Source: Gammaproteobacteria bacterium
GTDB taxonomy: Bacteria; Pseudomonadota; Gammaproteobacteria; Pseudomonadales; Azotimanducaceae
Direction: 5' to 3'
NCBI GenBank assembly: GCA_009846005.1
Contig: VXYL01000100.1
Location: 1-64,000, forward strand
DNA length: 64,000 nt
Shown here: piece by piece, positions 7,573-43,747 of the stretch
Position numbering within the stretch: the first letter of the stretch is position 1
How the letters are laid out: each line of letters opens with the position of its first letter
Position numbers and translations under genes: made by a program
Notes under the pieces: model-generated
Databases searched by the model: none
What the model was told of the DNA's origin: nothing
What the model saw: only the letters and a program-made list of their open reading frames with translations

Positions 7573-9009
7573 ATGCACATGAGACGGCCACAATCGTTCG
7601 TGCTGGCAGCCGCGGTGGCCGCCAGCGGTCCCCTCGCCGCGGGCGAAACGGACTTCCCGACGATTGCCGATCCCGGCATTCCCGGCACGCCCCGGCTTGG
7701 GCAGCCGACACTCGTAATGGGCGATACGAAACCCATCCTCACCGAGAAACACGGCCTCGCGGCCCCGGCACTTTGGGACTGGAACGGCGACGGCAAGCGC
7801 GACCTCTTAGTCGGCGAGTTCGAGACGAACTCCGGCGAGGATTTCCCCATGGGCGCCGACGGATCGACCATCCGCGTCTACCTCAATGTCGGGACCGACT
7901 CGGCTCCCAAGTTCACCGACGAGTTCGAGTGGGCGCGCGACACCGAGGGGACGATCATGGAGGTGCCGCAGTGGTGCTGCATCGGGTTCACGCCGCAGTT
8001 CGTCGACCTCGACAACGACGGCCACCTCGACATGATCACCGGCCAGTACCACCCCGGCGAGGTAACCTGGTTCCGGGGTACGCGTGACGGCTTCATGCCG
8101 GGCGTGAAATTGCCCCAGGAGGGCGATCCAACCTCGAGTGGAAACCCGATGTTCGGCGACTACGAGGGCGAGCCGGGGGACATTGGAACTTTCGACTACT
8201 GGGTGTATTCGTCGGCCAGCTTCGGCGACCTGGACGGTGACGGCGACCTGGACCTCGTTGTCGGCGGCGGCAGTGGGCTCCGAATGAGTGAGAACATCGG
8301 GGGCCCTAACAGACCGAGCTTCGGCAAGCGCGAGTTGCTTCTGGATGTCCATGGCGAGCCCCTGAAGATTCTCGAGCGAGACGACGTGGCCGAGACCTTG
8401 CCGGGTGCAAGTTCTCCACCCGCTGACGGCGACGGGAAGAGCAGTCCCCTGGTGGTCGACTGGAACGATGACGGCACGCCGGACCTGCTCGTCACTGGCA
8501 GCTACCGGCATCCCAACAGCCACGCGGTGACGTACTTCCGTGGCGTCAGGACCGATGCGGGTCTTCGCTTCCACCCGGGGGTGGACCTGTTGCCCACCGC
8601 CGACGGCGACAAGGCGTTGCCGGGGAGCGGCCAGCGCGTCTACGTCGACGACTGGAACCGCGACGGTGTCAAGGATCTGATCATCGGTGCCAGTGTCGCC
8701 ACGGTGAACGGCGGCGAGTTCAGCGACGAGCTTTCCTGGGCATGGGAAGATGTCACCAAGGTCGAGAGCGCAGGCAAGGATCCGGGGAGGTACCCCCCGA
8801 GGGAACGGCCGACGAAGGAGTCGATGGCCGAATTCCTGAATCTCGAAGCCCTCGGCGAAGAGCGGTTCGAGGAGACCGTGCGGATGAACCAGGAGTACTG
8901 GGACGAAACGGTCGGCAAGCTCTACGAGGAAGGCAAGGCGCACTGGCTGACCATGCGCCACCAAGGTCGGATCTACGTGATGCTTGGTGAGCAACGCACC
9001 GACGATTGA
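7573..9009 (+). CDS. Secreted FG-GAP/VCBS repeat protein
   Basis: Signal peptide and repeated DxDGDGxxD motifs (WDWNGDGKRDLLVGEF, DLDNDGHLDMITG, DLDGDGDLDLVVGG, DWNRDGVKDLIIG). Confidence 0.85.
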   Translation: MHMRRPQSFVLAAAVAASGPLAAGETDFPTIADPGIPGTPRLGQPTLVMGDTKPILTEKHGLAAPALWDWNGDGKRDLLVGEFETNSGEDFPMGADGSTIRVYLNVGTDSAPKFTDEFEWARDTEGTIMEVPQWCCIGFTPQFVDLDNDGHLDMITGQYHPGEVTWFRGTRDGFMPGVKLPQEGDPTSSGNPMFGDYEGEPGDIGTFDYWVYSSASFGDLDGDGDLDLVVGGGSGLRMSENIGGPNRPSFGKRELLLDVHGEPLKILERDDVAETLPGASSPPADGDGKSSPLVVDWNDDGTPDLLVTGSYRHPNSHAVTYFRGVRTDAGLRFHPGVDLLPTADGDKALPGSGQRVYVDDWNRDGVKDLIIGASVATVNGGEFSDELSWAWEDVTKVESAGKDPGRYPPRERPTKESMAEFLNLEALGEERFEETVRMNQEYWDETVGKLYEEGKAHWLTMRHQGRIYVMLGEQRTDD

Positions 9010-9029
9010 ACATCAGACGGGAGACAGCA

Positions 9030-10931
9030 ATGAAACGCGCAAATATCCTGCTTTTTGCCACCGCGCTGACCCTCGCAGGCCAGCTTGCGGCGGACGAGAA
9101 GAGTTTTCCGGAGATCCTCGATGCCGGTATTCCGGGCACCCCCAAACTCGGCCAGCCGATCCTCGTGACGGGGGCCACCAAGCCCATCCTCACCGAGAAA
9201 CACGGCCTCGCGGCCCCGGCGCTCTGGGACTGGAACGGCGACGGCAAGCGCGACCTCCTGGTCGGCGAGTTCGAAACCAACTCAAGTGATTTCCCGATGG
9301 GCGCGGACGGTTCGACCATCCGGGTCTACCTCAACGTCGGCACCGACGCCGACCCCAAGTTCACCGACGAGTTCGAGTGGGCGCAGGATACCGAAGGGAC
9401 CATCATGGAGGTGCCCCAGTGGTGCTGCATCGGCTTCACGCCGCAGTTCGTCGATCTCGACGACGATGGCCACCTCGACATGATTACCGGTCAGTACCAC
9501 CCCGGCGAGGTCACTTGGTTCCGGGGCACCGGCGCCGGGTTCCTGCCCAGTGAGACGCTGCCCCAGGAGGGTGATCCCACGGCGGACGGCAATCCGATGT
9601 TCGGCAACTACGAGGGCGAGCCCGGCGACATCGGCACGTTCCACTACTGGGTCTACACCTCGGCGAGCTTCGGGGACTTCGACGACGACGGCGACTACGA
9701 TCTGATCGTCGGCGGCGGCGACGGCCTGCGCATCAGCGAGAACATCGGCAGCCCGCGGCGACCGAGCTTTGCCATGCGCGAACCCCTGCTTACTCTCGAT
9801 GGAGAGCCCTTAAGGATCCTGGACCGTGGCGAGGAATGGGAAGCCAACTTCCCCGACGGGGAACTCCTGCCGCCCGATGGCGACGGCAAGAGCAGCCCGC
9901 TGGCGGTGGACTGGGACGACGACGGGGTTCTCGACCTGCTGGTCACCGGTTCCTACCGTCACCCGTCGAGCCACGCCGTGACTTTCTTCCGTGGCGTCAA
10001 GACCGACGACGGGCACCGTTTCCATCCAGGCGTCGACCTGCTGCCGACTGCAGATGGCGCGAAAGCGCTGCCCGGCAGCGGGCAACGCGTCTACGTGGAC
10101 GACTGGAACAAGGATGGCGTGAAGGACCTGATCATCGGTGCAAGCGTCGCCACCGTGAACGGCGGCGAGTTCAGCGACGAGCTTTCCTGGGAGTGGGAGG
10201 ATGTCAACGAAGTGGAAAGCGCCGGGAAAGATCCCGGGCTGTACCCGCCGAGGGAGCGACCGACCGAGGAGTCGGAGATCATGGTGTGGGCGAAGGAAAA
10301 CTACACCGAGGAGGAGTTCGAAGCGCACCTGAAGCTGAACCAGGAATATTGGTACGAGACGGTTGGCCGACTGTACGACGAGGGCAAGGCGCACTGGCTG
10401 ACCATGCGCCACCAGGGGCGTATTTACGTGATGATGGGTAAACAGCGCGAAGCCAGCCCCGTCACCGCCGACGCGGTTCCGGTTCCCGCGGACACGCCGA
10501 AACGCCGCTCGGCGTCGACTGCGTCTGCCAAGCCGCCCGTGACGATCGCGTTCGTCGCGCCCGACGAGGTCCGCACCGGGGAACGGGCCAACCTTGCGGT
10601 CAGCTTCTCCATGCGCCCCGGCTGGTACATCTACGCGCCGACCGGTCGCAATGCGCCGCACGGCATGATCGAGACGAGCGTTAGTCTGGCACTGCCGGAG
10701 GGCATCGAAAGCGCCGGCCCCCGCAGCCTGCCCGTGCATCATTTCAAGGGCCTCTACGACATCTACGAGGGCTCGGACCGTGCATGGGCACAGCCCGTCG
10801 AAGCGAGCGCCGCGGGGAACTACGAAGTAACCGCGAAAGTCACCTACCAGACCTGCAAGGACGATCTGTGCCTGCCACCCCGGACCGAAACCCTTCGGAC
10901 CGTGCTCGCGGTCGTCGACGCGGGCAGTTGA
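9030..10931 (+). CDS. Secreted FG-GAP/VCBS repeat protein with C-terminal DsbD alpha-like domain
   Basis: Paralogue of the preceding ORF; C-terminal extension ...MRPGWYIYAPTGRNAPHG...VTYQTCKDDLCLPPRTETL resembles the DsbD N-terminal (alpha) domain. Confidence 0.82.
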   Translation: MKRANILLFATALTLAGQLAADEKSFPEILDAGIPGTPKLGQPILVTGATKPILTEKHGLAAPALWDWNGDGKRDLLVGEFETNSSDFPMGADGSTIRVYLNVGTDADPKFTDEFEWAQDTEGTIMEVPQWCCIGFTPQFVDLDDDGHLDMITGQYHPGEVTWFRGTGAGFLPSETLPQEGDPTADGNPMFGNYEGEPGDIGTFHYWVYTSASFGDFDDDGDYDLIVGGGDGLRISENIGSPRRPSFAMREPLLTLDGEPLRILDRGEEWEANFPDGELLPPDGDGKSSPLAVDWDDDGVLDLLVTGSYRHPSSHAVTFFRGVKTDDGHRFHPGVDLLPTADGAKALPGSGQRVYVDDWNKDGVKDLIIGASVATVNGGEFSDELSWEWEDVNEVESAGKDPGLYPPRERPTEESEIMVWAKENYTEEEFEAHLKLNQEYWYETVGRLYDEGKAHWLTMRHQGRIYVMMGKQREASPVTADAVPVPADTPKRRSASTASAKPPVTIAFVAPDEVRTGERANLAVSFSMRPGWYIYAPTGRNAPHGMIETSVSLALPEGIESAGPRSLPVHHFKGLYDIYEGSDRAWAQPVEASAAGNYEVTAKVTYQTCKDDLCLPPRTETLRTVLAVVDAGS

Positions 10932-29537: not shown

Positions 29538-31373
29538 GTGAACAACAAGACATCGAAAAACCTGTGGCGAATCACCGCCGGTCAGCGCGTGAGGTACGCC
29601 GCCGCCATCGCGGTAACGGGCCTTGCGAGCGCGTTCATGCTCACCGTCCCGCTGGTCGGGGGCTACGTCCTCGACGTGGTGGACACCCAAGACCTGTCGC
29701 GGGGCCCCGAGGCACTCGTAAACGCCGCCCACGCGCTGGCGGCGTTCTGGGGCTGGCAACCGTACGTCGCCTATCTCGTCGTCTCCGGTGTTGCCGGCGT
29801 CGGTCTCACGGCGCTCGGCGCGAGTTGCCAGTACCTGCAGGGTCGGTGGGCCGCCATCGCATCCGAAGCCCTCGCGCGGCGACTGCGCGAGACCATGTAC
29901 GCCCGGCTGCAGCATCTACCGGCGTCCTTCTTCGACGAGGCGGATACCGGGGATCTCGTGCAACGCTGCAGTTCGGATGTCGAGACGGTGCGCGTCTTCC
30001 TGTCCTCCCAGGTAGTGCAGATCGGCCGCTCGGTGCTCCTGCTCAGCGTCCTGACGCCGATACTGTTCGTCCGGGACGCCCGGCTGGCGGGTCTCGCACT
30101 CGTGCTGATGCCGTTCATCATCACCGGGGCGTACTACTTCTTCGCGAAGGTCCGCGCTCAGTTCAAGATCACCGACGAGTCCGAGGGCGCGCTCACCGCT
30201 CGACTCCAGGAAAACCTGACAGGCATCCGCGTGGTCCGCGCCTTTGCAAGGCAGGACTACGAAGTCAGCCACTTCGGCGCGAAGAGCATCACACTGCGCG
30301 ACAACCGTGAACGCCTCAACCGTTTGAGCGGCGCCTACTGGGCGGTCAGCGACTTCCTGTGCACGGCGCAGGTCTGCATCGTGCTCATCGCGGGCGGCAT
30401 CTTCCTTGCGGGCGGGACCCTGACCGTCGGCGAACTGTTCGCCTTCATGATGCAGGTGACGATGGTCATCTGGCCGGTCAGGCATCTCGGCCAGGTCCTC
30501 AACGAGTCCGGCAAGGCCATGGTCTCGCTAGGGCGCATCAACCATGTTCTTCAGGCCGACGAGGAAAGCCGGGAGCCGGCGCCAACCGTCGAGCGTGCCC
30601 GGGGCGAACTGGTGCTTGAGGATGTGTGCGTCGAGTACGAGCCCGGCAAACCGGTCCTGGATGGGCTTTCGGTTCATATCCCCGCCGGCGAGACGGTCGG
30701 CATCGTGGGGCCGCCGGGCGCCGGCAAGTCCACCCTGATCCGGGTCTTGGCGCGGCTCTACGAACCGCAGCGGGGACGCATCCTGATCGACGGCCTGGAC
30801 ATCCGCGACGTCGATCGCCATTGGCTCCGCCGCCAGTTCGGCATCGTCATGCAGAACCCCTTCCTCTATTCGCGCACCGTCGCCGACAACCTGCGCCTCG
30901 CGCGCTCAGACGTGAACGACGACGAGATGGTGGCGGCGGCCCGGGAGGCGGCGGTCCACGACGCCATCGCGGGCTTCCCCGCCGGCTACCGTTCGCGGGT
31001 GGGCGAACGGGGGGTCACGCTGTCCGGCGGCCAGCGGCAACGACTCGCGCTTGCGCGCGCGCTGCTCGTCGAGCCGCCGATCCTCGTTCTCGACGATGCG
31101 CTGTCCGCCGTCGACACGGGCACCGAACGCGAGATCATGTCGGCGCTAGACCGTCGCCGCGGCCGTCACACCACGATCATCATTGCCCACCGGCTGTCCT
31201 CAGTTCGCAATGCGGACCGCATCCTGGTGCTGGAGCGAGGTCATCTGATTCAGGAAGGCACCCACGCCACGCTGGCCGCGACGTCGGGTCCCTATCGGCG
31301 GTTGTGCGAGATCCAGGGTGCCCTAGACCAAGCCATAGAGCAGGACCTGAAGGAGGCAACCGATGCCGTTTGA
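29538..31373 (+). CDS. ABC exporter half-transporter (pair B, degenerate Walker B)
   Basis: GPPGAGKSTLIRVLARLY, LSGGQRQRLALARAL, ILVLDDALSAVDTGTE (Asp in place of the catalytic Glu), IIIAHRLSSVRNADRI; GTG start. Confidence 0.93.
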   Translation: MNNKTSKNLWRITAGQRVRYAAAIAVTGLASAFMLTVPLVGGYVLDVVDTQDLSRGPEALVNAAHALAAFWGWQPYVAYLVVSGVAGVGLTALGASCQYLQGRWAAIASEALARRLRETMYARLQHLPASFFDEADTGDLVQRCSSDVETVRVFLSSQVVQIGRSVLLLSVLTPILFVRDARLAGLALVLMPFIITGAYYFFAKVRAQFKITDESEGALTARLQENLTGIRVVRAFARQDYEVSHFGAKSITLRDNRERLNRLSGAYWAVSDFLCTAQVCIVLIAGGIFLAGGTLTVGELFAFMMQVTMVIWPVRHLGQVLNESGKAMVSLGRINHVLQADEESREPAPTVERARGELVLEDVCVEYEPGKPVLDGLSVHIPAGETVGIVGPPGAGKSTLIRVLARLYEPQRGRILIDGLDIRDVDRHWLRRQFGIVMQNPFLYSRTVADNLRLARSDVNDDEMVAAAREAAVHDAIAGFPAGYRSRVGERGVTLSGGQRQRLALARALLVEPPILVLDDALSAVDTGTEREIMSALDRRRGRHTTIIIAHRLSSVRNADRILVLERGHLIQEGTHATLAATSGPYRRLCEIQGALDQAIEQDLKEATDAV

Positions 31374-41005: not shown

Positions 41006-42112
41006 CTACCGACCGGCGAAGCCCGGTTCGAGGACGGTTCGGACCGCCTGCTTGGACCTCGCCTGATCAAGCACGCTCGTCAAGGTGGCGTGCATGCCCT
41101 TGCTGACGATGCCCTCGTCGATCCAAAGCCGTGTCGCTAGGCGCGCGTTGCTGCGCCATTCCGCCACCTCGTTCTCGGTGGGGCTCAGGAATTCGAGGCC
41201 CTGTTTCTCAAGGGCCTGCCACGCCGCGCTGTGGTCGGCACGGTTCAAGCGATCTACTTCTGCGATTCCCGCGCCCATGATCCGCTTCAAGGCAACCACG
41301 TCGGCCTCGGCGATGTCCCTCAAGCTTCGATCGGAGACGACCACCAAGCTGTAGATGTACATGAATGGCAGATCGAGGACGTACCGGAGCTTGGTATGCC
41401 AGGACAACGGCAGGACAGCGACGGGTGGCGCGGCCACGGTGTCGATCAGGTCGGTCTGCAAGCCCGAGAGCACCTCGGCAAGGCCCAAGGGGATCGGTTT
41501 GATCCGAAACGCCGACAGGGCGCGCTCGGCCGGCCGATCGCCTTGCGGGGACCAGACCTTGAGTCGGCGCGCGTCGGCGAGGCTTCGCACCTCCTTGGTG
41601 CTCATGGCGTACGCCATGCCGATCTCGGCGATGCCAAGGGCCACGAAGCCCGCCTCCGCGAGGCCCGCGACCAGCAACGGGTCCACGACTTCCCGCACGG
41701 CGTCCACCTCGTCGAGGTTCTCGAACACCATGGGCAGGTTGTATATCTGGACATCCGTGAACAGTCTGCTGAACACGCCCGTCTGGACGATACCGCCGTC
41801 GAGTTGGCGAACCCGTATCCGGCGCAGCACCTGTTGGTCGTCGCCACGGACGCCGCCGGGGTAGTACTTGATCTCGACCCGGCCCTCCGTCGCCGCCGCG
41901 ACGTCGGCCCCGGCCTGGCGCAGCACTTTCATCCAGGATGATCCATCCGGGGCGGTGGTCGCAATTTTGAGAGCCTTCGCCGTCGCCGTCGGCGCACTCG
42001 CGACCAACGCCGCGAAAGCCAGTGCCGACGCGACGCGGCACCATCGTCGATGGCGGCAATCAGAAGTAGCCGTCGGCGGAATCCAATAGGGCACGTGCCT
42101 GCTCCTTACCAA
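41006..42112 (-). CDS. dctP: TRAP transporter substrate-binding protein (DctP family)
   Basis: Signal peptide; LKIATTAPDGSSWMKVLRQAGADVAAATEGRVEIKYYPGGVRGDDQQVLRRIRVRQLDGG...SGLQTDLIDTVAAPP; exact start uncertain. Confidence 0.88.
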   Translation of the reverse strand: MVRSRHVPYWIPPTATSDCRHRRWCRVASALAFAALVASAPTATAKALKIATTAPDGSSWMKVLRQAGADVAAATEGRVEIKYYPGGVRGDDQQVLRRIRVRQLDGGIVQTGVFSRLFTDVQIYNLPMVFENLDEVDAVREVVDPLLVAGLAEAGFVALGIAEIGMAYAMSTKEVRSLADARRLKVWSPQGDRPAERALSAFRIKPIPLGLAEVLSGLQTDLIDTVAAPPVAVLPLSWHTKLRYVLDLPFMYIYSLVVVSDRSLRDIAEADVVALKRIMGAGIAEVDRLNRADHSAAWQALEKQGLEFLSPTENEVAEWRSNARLATRLWIDEGIVSKGMHATLTSVLDQARSKQAVRTVLEPGFAGR

Positions 42113-42917
42113 TCGTGTTCATCAGGGTAAGCCCGGGCGCCGCCGGGTCTGCCGCCAACACCTCGTTCAGCAAGGCGTCGTGGAGTTCACGGTCGAACAG
42201 CAGCCGGGCGTACTGCTGGGCAAAAAACACCTTCGCCATCAGGTGGCGACCATCGGTGAGTTCGATCACGCGCTCGAAATGCGCACGCCCGATCTCCGGA
42301 TGCCCACCCGATGCCGGGGGAATCAGCGTCTCGAAGACCCCCATGTAGAGGTGCGGCCCTCCGTGATCGTGCGCCTCGTCGAGTTCGACCACGCGAGCCA
42401 TGATCGGTTTCACCCGGGCGAGGTCGGCGATGGCGTTCCAGTCGTGGGCATGGGCTTGGATCCATCCCGCCCATGCCGTGGCCAATGCGTAGGCGGGGCC
42501 GACGTGCCGCTCTTCAAGCATGGCGGCGTGTCGAGCCAAATCGTCAAAGCCCACGGTCCGCACGTCGCACAGCCAGTCGATGTCGATGCACGCGGCGCGG
42601 TGCGCATAGTCGAACGCCTTGCTGGCGAACGCCCGGCGTCGAACCTCGTCCGCGACGAACGCGGTTGCGTAAGCGCCGTTCAAGGTCGCCGCGCCGCGCA
42701 GTAGCTCCGGGTTGTCGGGATCGCCGCGCAGCAAGGCATCGAGCATGAGGAGATACGCCGGCGCCCCATCGCGAACCGTCGCGGGATCGTCGCTATCGAG
42801 GATCGCATCGGACAGATCCTCGAAAAGACCCCCCGTCACGTTCCCGATGAGGGACGCGCAACCGGCGAGCAGCAACGAAATCGCCGCCACACCAACATGG
42901 CGCATTCGCGAGTTCAT
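42060..42917 (-). CDS. TatT (TP0956)-like lipoprotein associated with the TRAP transporter
   Basis: Lipobox LLLAGCASL; helical-repeat protein with VELDEAHDHGGPHLYMGVFETLIPPASGG, typical of TatT family; adjacent to dctPQM. Confidence 0.8.
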   Translation of the reverse strand: MNSRMRHVGVAAISLLLAGCASLIGNVTGGLFEDLSDAILDSDDPATVRDGAPAYLLMLDALLRGDPDNPELLRGAATLNGAYATAFVADEVRRRAFASKAFDYAHRAACIDIDWLCDVRTVGFDDLARHAAMLEERHVGPAYALATAWAGWIQAHAHDWNAIADLARVKPIMARVVELDEAHDHGGPHLYMGVFETLIPPASGGHPEIGRAHFERVIELTDGRHLMAKVFFAQQYARLLFDRELHDALLNEVLAADPAAPGLTLMNTIGKEQARALLDSADGYF

Positions 42918-43021
42918 CGCGCGAGTATAGCCAACGCCATTTGGAGAAACGGTGACGGCAAAGTGGAAACAATGGCGAAAACCGACGCAGGGACTACCTA
43001 TCGACGCCCTGGGCACTTCGG

Positions 43022-43123
43022 GACGCCACAAAGGCATCCCCTACCCGATCTGCGGCTGCACGGTCGCCCGTGCCCGACATACCGGCTCGGTTGGCAACAG
43101 GACGGGACGAGCCCGTCCCCTAC
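43022..43123. repeat. REP-like palindromic element GACGGGACgaGCCCGTCCCCTAC
   Basis: Matches the GTAGGGGACGGGCTTGTCCCGTCCC repeat at 53.1 and 61.6 kb; a degenerate CACAAaGGcatCCCCTAC unit lies just before it. Confidence 0.6.
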
Positions 43124-43132
43124 GGACCGTGC

Positions 43133-43747
43133 CTACTCGGTCGCGACGAGCGCTCGCGCGGCTTCGAGAAGCTCGTCGAACGGCGGGCGCGTCCGGTAGT
43201 TCTCGTGGGCGCGCTTGAGCCGCACGACGCCTCTCGCGTCGACGAATAGGATGCCCGGATGCGCAACGCCGTGGGCGCCGTGCCCCTTGGGGAACCGTTC
43301 GTTGCGAACACCCAGCGCATCGATGTACTTCGAGCCCGGGTCCGAAAGCAACGCGTAGCCGATCTCCCGTTCCTCGCCGAAATCCGCAAGATCGTCGGCG
43401 GCGTCGTAGGTCATGCCCGCGACCTTGACGCCAAGGGCCTCGAAGGCGTCCTGCCAGTCGTTCAGCTGAACCAGCTGAGCCTTGCAGAACGGTCACCAGA
43501 CCGCGCTGCGGCTGACAACCAGGACGAGACCTCCCGGGCCGGTCAAACTCGCCAAATCGCGCACGTTGCCGTGCTGGTCCTCGGCGGCGATCGGCGGCAC
43601 GGCATCGCCCACCGACGGCCCCCACGCGTCCTGATAGGCGTCTGCGCCGCCGCTCTGCGTCGATGCCTCGCCCGTGCCAAAGGCGGTCGCTGCCACCAAC
43701 CAGCCGCCCGCCGCCAGCGCGGCTACCGTCAGGCGTCGATTAACCAT
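43133..43747 (-). CDS. Redoxin (AhpC/TSA-type) with in-frame TGA, candidate selenoprotein
   Basis: ORFs 43493-43747 and the downstream one ending at 43133 share a frame; the joined product reads GLVLVVSRSAVW-[TGA]-PFCKAQLVQLNDWQDAFEALGVKVAGMTYD..., placing UGA at the first Cys of a CxxC. Confidence 0.75.
43462..43478 (-). promoter_or_regulatory. Candidate bacterial SECIS hairpin
   Basis: 14 nt after the TGA (43493-43495): UCAGCUG-GUU-CAGCUGA, seven base pairs with a GUU apical loop. Confidence 0.55.

Follow-up and report, generated by a model that had tools for sequence, protein, structure and literature searches.

The window analysed here, a stretch of 64 kb, is part of contig 44 in a draft genome of 4.96 Mb that is 97% complete. 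On the minus strand, a redoxin frame runs from an ATG at 43747-43745 to a stop at 43135-43133 and is interrupted by one in-frame TGA. An earlier note on this DNA had described a single TGA splitting one secreted-redoxin frame, and translation showed its coordinates to be correct to the base. With the TGA read as selenocysteine (Sec, U), the surrounding residues are VSRSAVW-U-PFCKAQLVQL, where U85-P-F-C88 forms a UxxC motif in place of the TxxU of peroxiredoxins (Prx). The protein read in this way matched PF00578 (AhpC-TSA) with 81.8 bits (cut-off 26) and the Redoxin profile with 47.9 bits, and both matches span the TGA. The signal-peptide-like N terminus, together with relatives of which several look like lipoproteins, points to a periplasmic location. 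Downstream of the redoxin gene lie the genes for a TRAP transporter T-component (TAtT) and DctP, followed by further TRAP-transporter genes. The redoxin-TAtT order is kept in one relative ('Gammaproteobacteria bacterium RHO3_bin_63', locus L049). Within the 64-kb window no tRNA was detected by ARAGORN and no RNA family by Rfam search.

Table 1. Position of the redoxin gene, its elements and the neighbouring gene in the window.
Feature	Position	Strand	Evidence
Predicted selenoprotein gene, 204-residue AhpC/TSA-type redoxin, UGA as Sec at residue 85	43133..43747	minus	translation, PF00578 match, homologues, dN/dS, AlphaFold model
Predicted Sec codon (U85), in-frame TGA	43493..43495	minus	TGA in 50/50 open family members, TGC/TGT in 20/20 outside
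Cys88 codon TGC, resolving-type, UxxC motif	43484..43486	minus	invariant across 42 aligned sequences
Probable signal peptide, ~residues 1-31	43655..43747	minus	hydrophobic N terminus; model confidence low for residues 1-30
SECIS hairpin UCAGCUG-GUU-CAGCUGA	43462..43478	minus	compensatory changes over 42 sequences; stem absent in Cys homologues
TAtT, next gene downstream of redoxin	42060..43037	minus	PF16811, 233 bits

Only three in-frame TGAs of the window have coding-like flanks on both sides. Besides the one in the redoxin gene, there is a TGA at 10929-10931 that simply terminates a gene ahead of a response-regulator frame and was discarded as a Sec codon for this reason. The frame preceding it (8991-10928, plus strand) carries FG-GAP repeats and, at its C terminus, a DsbD_N domain (36 bits), and the response regulator directly after it is OmpR-like. 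The TGA at 30906-30908 (minus strand) is a weak candidate with coding-like flanks of 79 and 125 codons, in which no Sec-like motif was visible.

The AlphaFold model, obtained with the family alignment, displays a thioredoxin fold with a mean pLDDT of 89.8, in which U85 directly precedes helix 86-103, where the active-site helix begins. The closest folds in the PDB are those of AhpE, Bcp and ApPrx, the peroxiredoxin of Aeropyrum. The idea that U85 corresponds to the peroxidatic Cys of Prx was abandoned after alignment to ApPrx, where U85 occupies the position of the catalytic Thr and C88 that of the peroxidatic Cys. This arrangement indicates a thioredoxin-like UxxC pair rather than the TxxU of Prx. 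A true peroxiredoxin, carrying Sec and devoted mainly to peroxide removal instead of thiol:disulfide exchange, has in its favour the AhpC-TSA domain, the nearest folds and the alignment of C88 with the peroxidatic Cys. However, the Prx active site PxxxTxxC was not found in the redoxin, which reads SxxxUxxC with the Pro missing and Sec in the catalytic Thr place, and this function is considered possible but rather doubtful. Compared with the AhpE/Bcp/PrxQ peroxiredoxins in general, the protein shares the fold and weak sequence matches but differs in the active site and in being apparently exported. It resembles ResA and DsbE (CcmG) in its apparently exported thioredoxin fold, its CxxC-type motif and weak matches, whereas it has Sec for the first Cys and scores far under the cut-offs of these families. 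The match to the SelL-related family NF040769 reached 36.5 bits, below the curated cut-off of 120.

Selenoproteins of a Prx-like family in which UXXC replaces TXXU have been known from the Sargasso Sea since 2005 (PMC1088965), and the GOS data contained 225 'Prx-like 1' members with PF00578 and UxxC (PMC2398784). Prx-like thiol:disulfide oxidoreductase (UxxC) selenoproteins are also listed elsewhere (PMC9312934, PMC13188914). On the basis of PF00578 and the UxxC motif, the predicted redoxin is assigned to this known family, and the likeness to UxxC Prx-like proteins from marine metagenomes had been rightly recognised in the earlier note. The shared features are the AhpC-TSA domain, UxxC and not TxxU, the existence of Cys homologues and a bacterial SECIS right after the UGA; compared by published descriptions, no separating feature was found.

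The homologue search covered 99 relatives. Close homologues are present in most genomes of the same bacterial family, nearly all of them with exactly one stop, which is a TGA. Base-by-base inspection of the Sec codon revealed TGA in all 50 open copies of the family (the window and 49 further homologues) and TGC or TGT in all 20 more distant homologues. The latter belong to Sphingomonadales, Hyphomonadaceae, SAR86-type and other Gammaproteobacteria, and one acidobacterium. The TGA had indeed been proposed to sit at the active-site Cys of Cys homologues, as the alignment column now shows. The occurrence of the same TGA in independently assembled genomes excludes a sequencing error. On a maximum-likelihood tree, the Sec and Cys labels are strongly clustered (3 changes; shuffles, 15.9). 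Nested in the Sec group is a Cys clade of Gammaproteobacteria, which suggests a Sec-to-Cys replacement there, although its exact placement has low support. Residues invariant across Sec and Cys forms are G73, R80, S81, W84, C85 (U), C88, Q91, D136, G160 and R187. Three Sec copies (L083, L085, L086) display U-G-Y-C or U-S-[FY]-C in place of U-P-x-C, so that the family can dispense with the Pro after Sec. Within 369 genomes sampled across the class, the search (E <= 1e-12) yielded only the window's own genome and one distant stop-free match, and no further Sec forms.

The SECIS-like hairpin begins 14 nt past the TGA. Bacterial SECIS elements have been modelled with a loop of 3-9 nt, an upper stem of 4-16 bp, a G at loop position 1 or 2, a UGA-to-loop distance of 16-37 nt and an MFE <= -7.5 (PMC13188914). 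The present hairpin lies within every one of these limits, with a loop of 3 nt (GUU, G first), a stem of 7 bp, a spacing of 21 nt and -22.5 kcal/mol for the 53-nt segment folded by RNAfold (z = -2.3). Of 200 shuffles, 7 folded equally well. A single hairpin on its own would be weak evidence; it is the homologues that argue against chance. Over 42 distinct sequences, 92.2% of the cells are paired; shuffles gave 78.6%, and slid structures no more than 40%. Double-change cells amounted to 56 versus 20.1 in shuffles, and the covariation score was 0.458 (0.189 shuffled); none of 500 shuffles reached these values. All 44 distinct sequences have either C-G or U-A at pair 22-30, without a single mixed combination; silent codon changes alone gave a table of 27/0/0/9. 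Pair 21-31 is G-C in 32 sequences, A-U in nine and G-U in two, with one mismatch, and its changes are mostly silent. As the sequences share ancestry, they are less independent than the Fisher p-values for the pair covariation (1e-12 and 7e-7) imply. The GU of the loop is invariant family-wide, and the stem is not formed in the Cys homologues. What had been claimed for this hairpin, namely the position, the 7-bp stem and the G-first loop, was confirmed, with one minor correction: only six pairs are conserved family-wide. The seventh, loop-closing pair is present in about half of the sequences, giving a working apical loop of 3-5 nt.

A search of the window's genome with the SECIS covariance model retrieved only the redoxin gene and a paralogue, plus two chance-level matches (L092, L093); in the single frame viewed, the surroundings of L092 contained nothing notable. 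The paralogue is a second TGA redoxin of the same family (L070:2086-2637; G000 contig 34, 81597-82109) with 51% identity, and its own SECIS-like hairpin scored 54.6 bits to the family model. Up to six TGA redoxin copies were counted in one genome (G015).

Translation past the TGA was addressed by comparison with five relatives. The dN/dS of about 0.21-0.34 indicates that translation and selective constraint continue downstream of it. Among 61 genomes of the family, the TGA redoxin is present in 48 of the 52 with selB versus three of the nine without a selB match (Fisher p = 3e-4). These three (G005, G033, G043) are all incomplete drafts that keep selD, and in four genomes selB is present with no close TGA copy. 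Genome G031 has no selB match, and its selD match is short and TGA-interrupted. The redoxin homologue of G031 (L071, contig 49) has decayed, with TGG at the Sec codon and TAA and TAG further on. As judged from these sequences, G031 serves as a natural control, in which gene and machinery appear to have decayed as expected after the loss of Sec decoding.

The genome encodes a complete Sec machinery. selB was detected above cut-off by profile search (377 bits), and selA, identified from sequence and not by profile, lies directly upstream. selD scored 246 bits and the tRNA-Sec, with anticodon UCA, 69.5 bits. The recommended check for selA, selB, selC and selD was thus positive for all four in the same genome. 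A 723-residue frame (L016:1399-3570, G000 contig 72) has selD as its C-terminal part and an N-terminal part that appears to resemble a pyridine-nucleotide-disulfide oxidoreductase.

Altogether, the region 43747-43133 (minus strand) is most probably, at roughly 93%, a selenoprotein gene with Sec at residue 85 encoding a probably exported UxxC redoxin that works as proposed below. This reading draws on computational evidence for the frame, the Sec machinery, the UGA/Cys exchange, covariation in the SECIS, purifying selection downstream of the UGA and the fold. The earlier proposal that UGA is decoded as Sec at this site is strongly supported by the machinery, the U/C exchange and the covarying SECIS. 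A pseudogene created by nonsense mutation, or an error at a Cys codon, is what an in-frame TGA normally signifies, and a decayed copy does exist in G031; yet this is very improbable here, given the same TGA in 49 homologues from other assemblies, the selection that goes on past it, the covarying hairpin after it and the different appearance of the G031 copy. The frame being open on either side of the TGA would also fit a general code change (e.g. UGA as Trp) or leaky read-through without Sec, an explanation hardly credible with only one convincing in-frame TGA in the window, a complete Sec machinery including tRNA-Sec (UCA), Cys and not Trp in the homologues, and a SECIS with compensatory change.

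In the selenoprotein reading, SelB carrying Sec-tRNA(Sec) would bind the hairpin just 3' of the UGA, and the ribosome would insert selenocysteine at residue 85 rather than terminate. The product, with its AhpC/TSA-type thioredoxin fold, would probably be exported. The U85-P-F-C88 pair is expected to cycle between selenol/thiol and selenenylsulfide. Most likely the protein would act as a periplasmic thiol:disulfide oxidoreductase or as a thiol-dependent (per)oxide reductase, and it may be re-reduced by a membrane reductase of the DsbD/ScsB type.

A DsbD_N domain was observed behind the redoxin in a Sec protein of the same family (L089:1378-2526) and in a Cys protein of an acidobacterium (L066:2947-4005). 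The window's genome encodes one DsbD_TM protein with thioredoxin-like domains. These fusions and the DsbD_TM protein make a DsbD-type reductant plausible. A literature search returned nothing specific on DsbD_N-redoxin fusions. Compared with the published Prx-like UxxC selenoproteins, what differs here is the multiplication of the gene within a single bacterial family and, in some members, a fusion to DsbD_N; both features may be less documented than the UxxC kind itself. It is tentatively proposed, as a possibility on the unlikely side, that the exported UxxC redoxins multiplied in this gammaproteobacterial family, some of them DsbD_N-fused, constitute a selenium-based periplasmic relay with its own reductase and are a major reason why the family keeps Sec decoding.

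Standard annotation would label the redoxin gene a pseudogene or two fragments. With silent compensation in the SECIS and a relative losing machinery and gene together, the family represents an unusually clean in-silico case of a bacterial selenoprotein.
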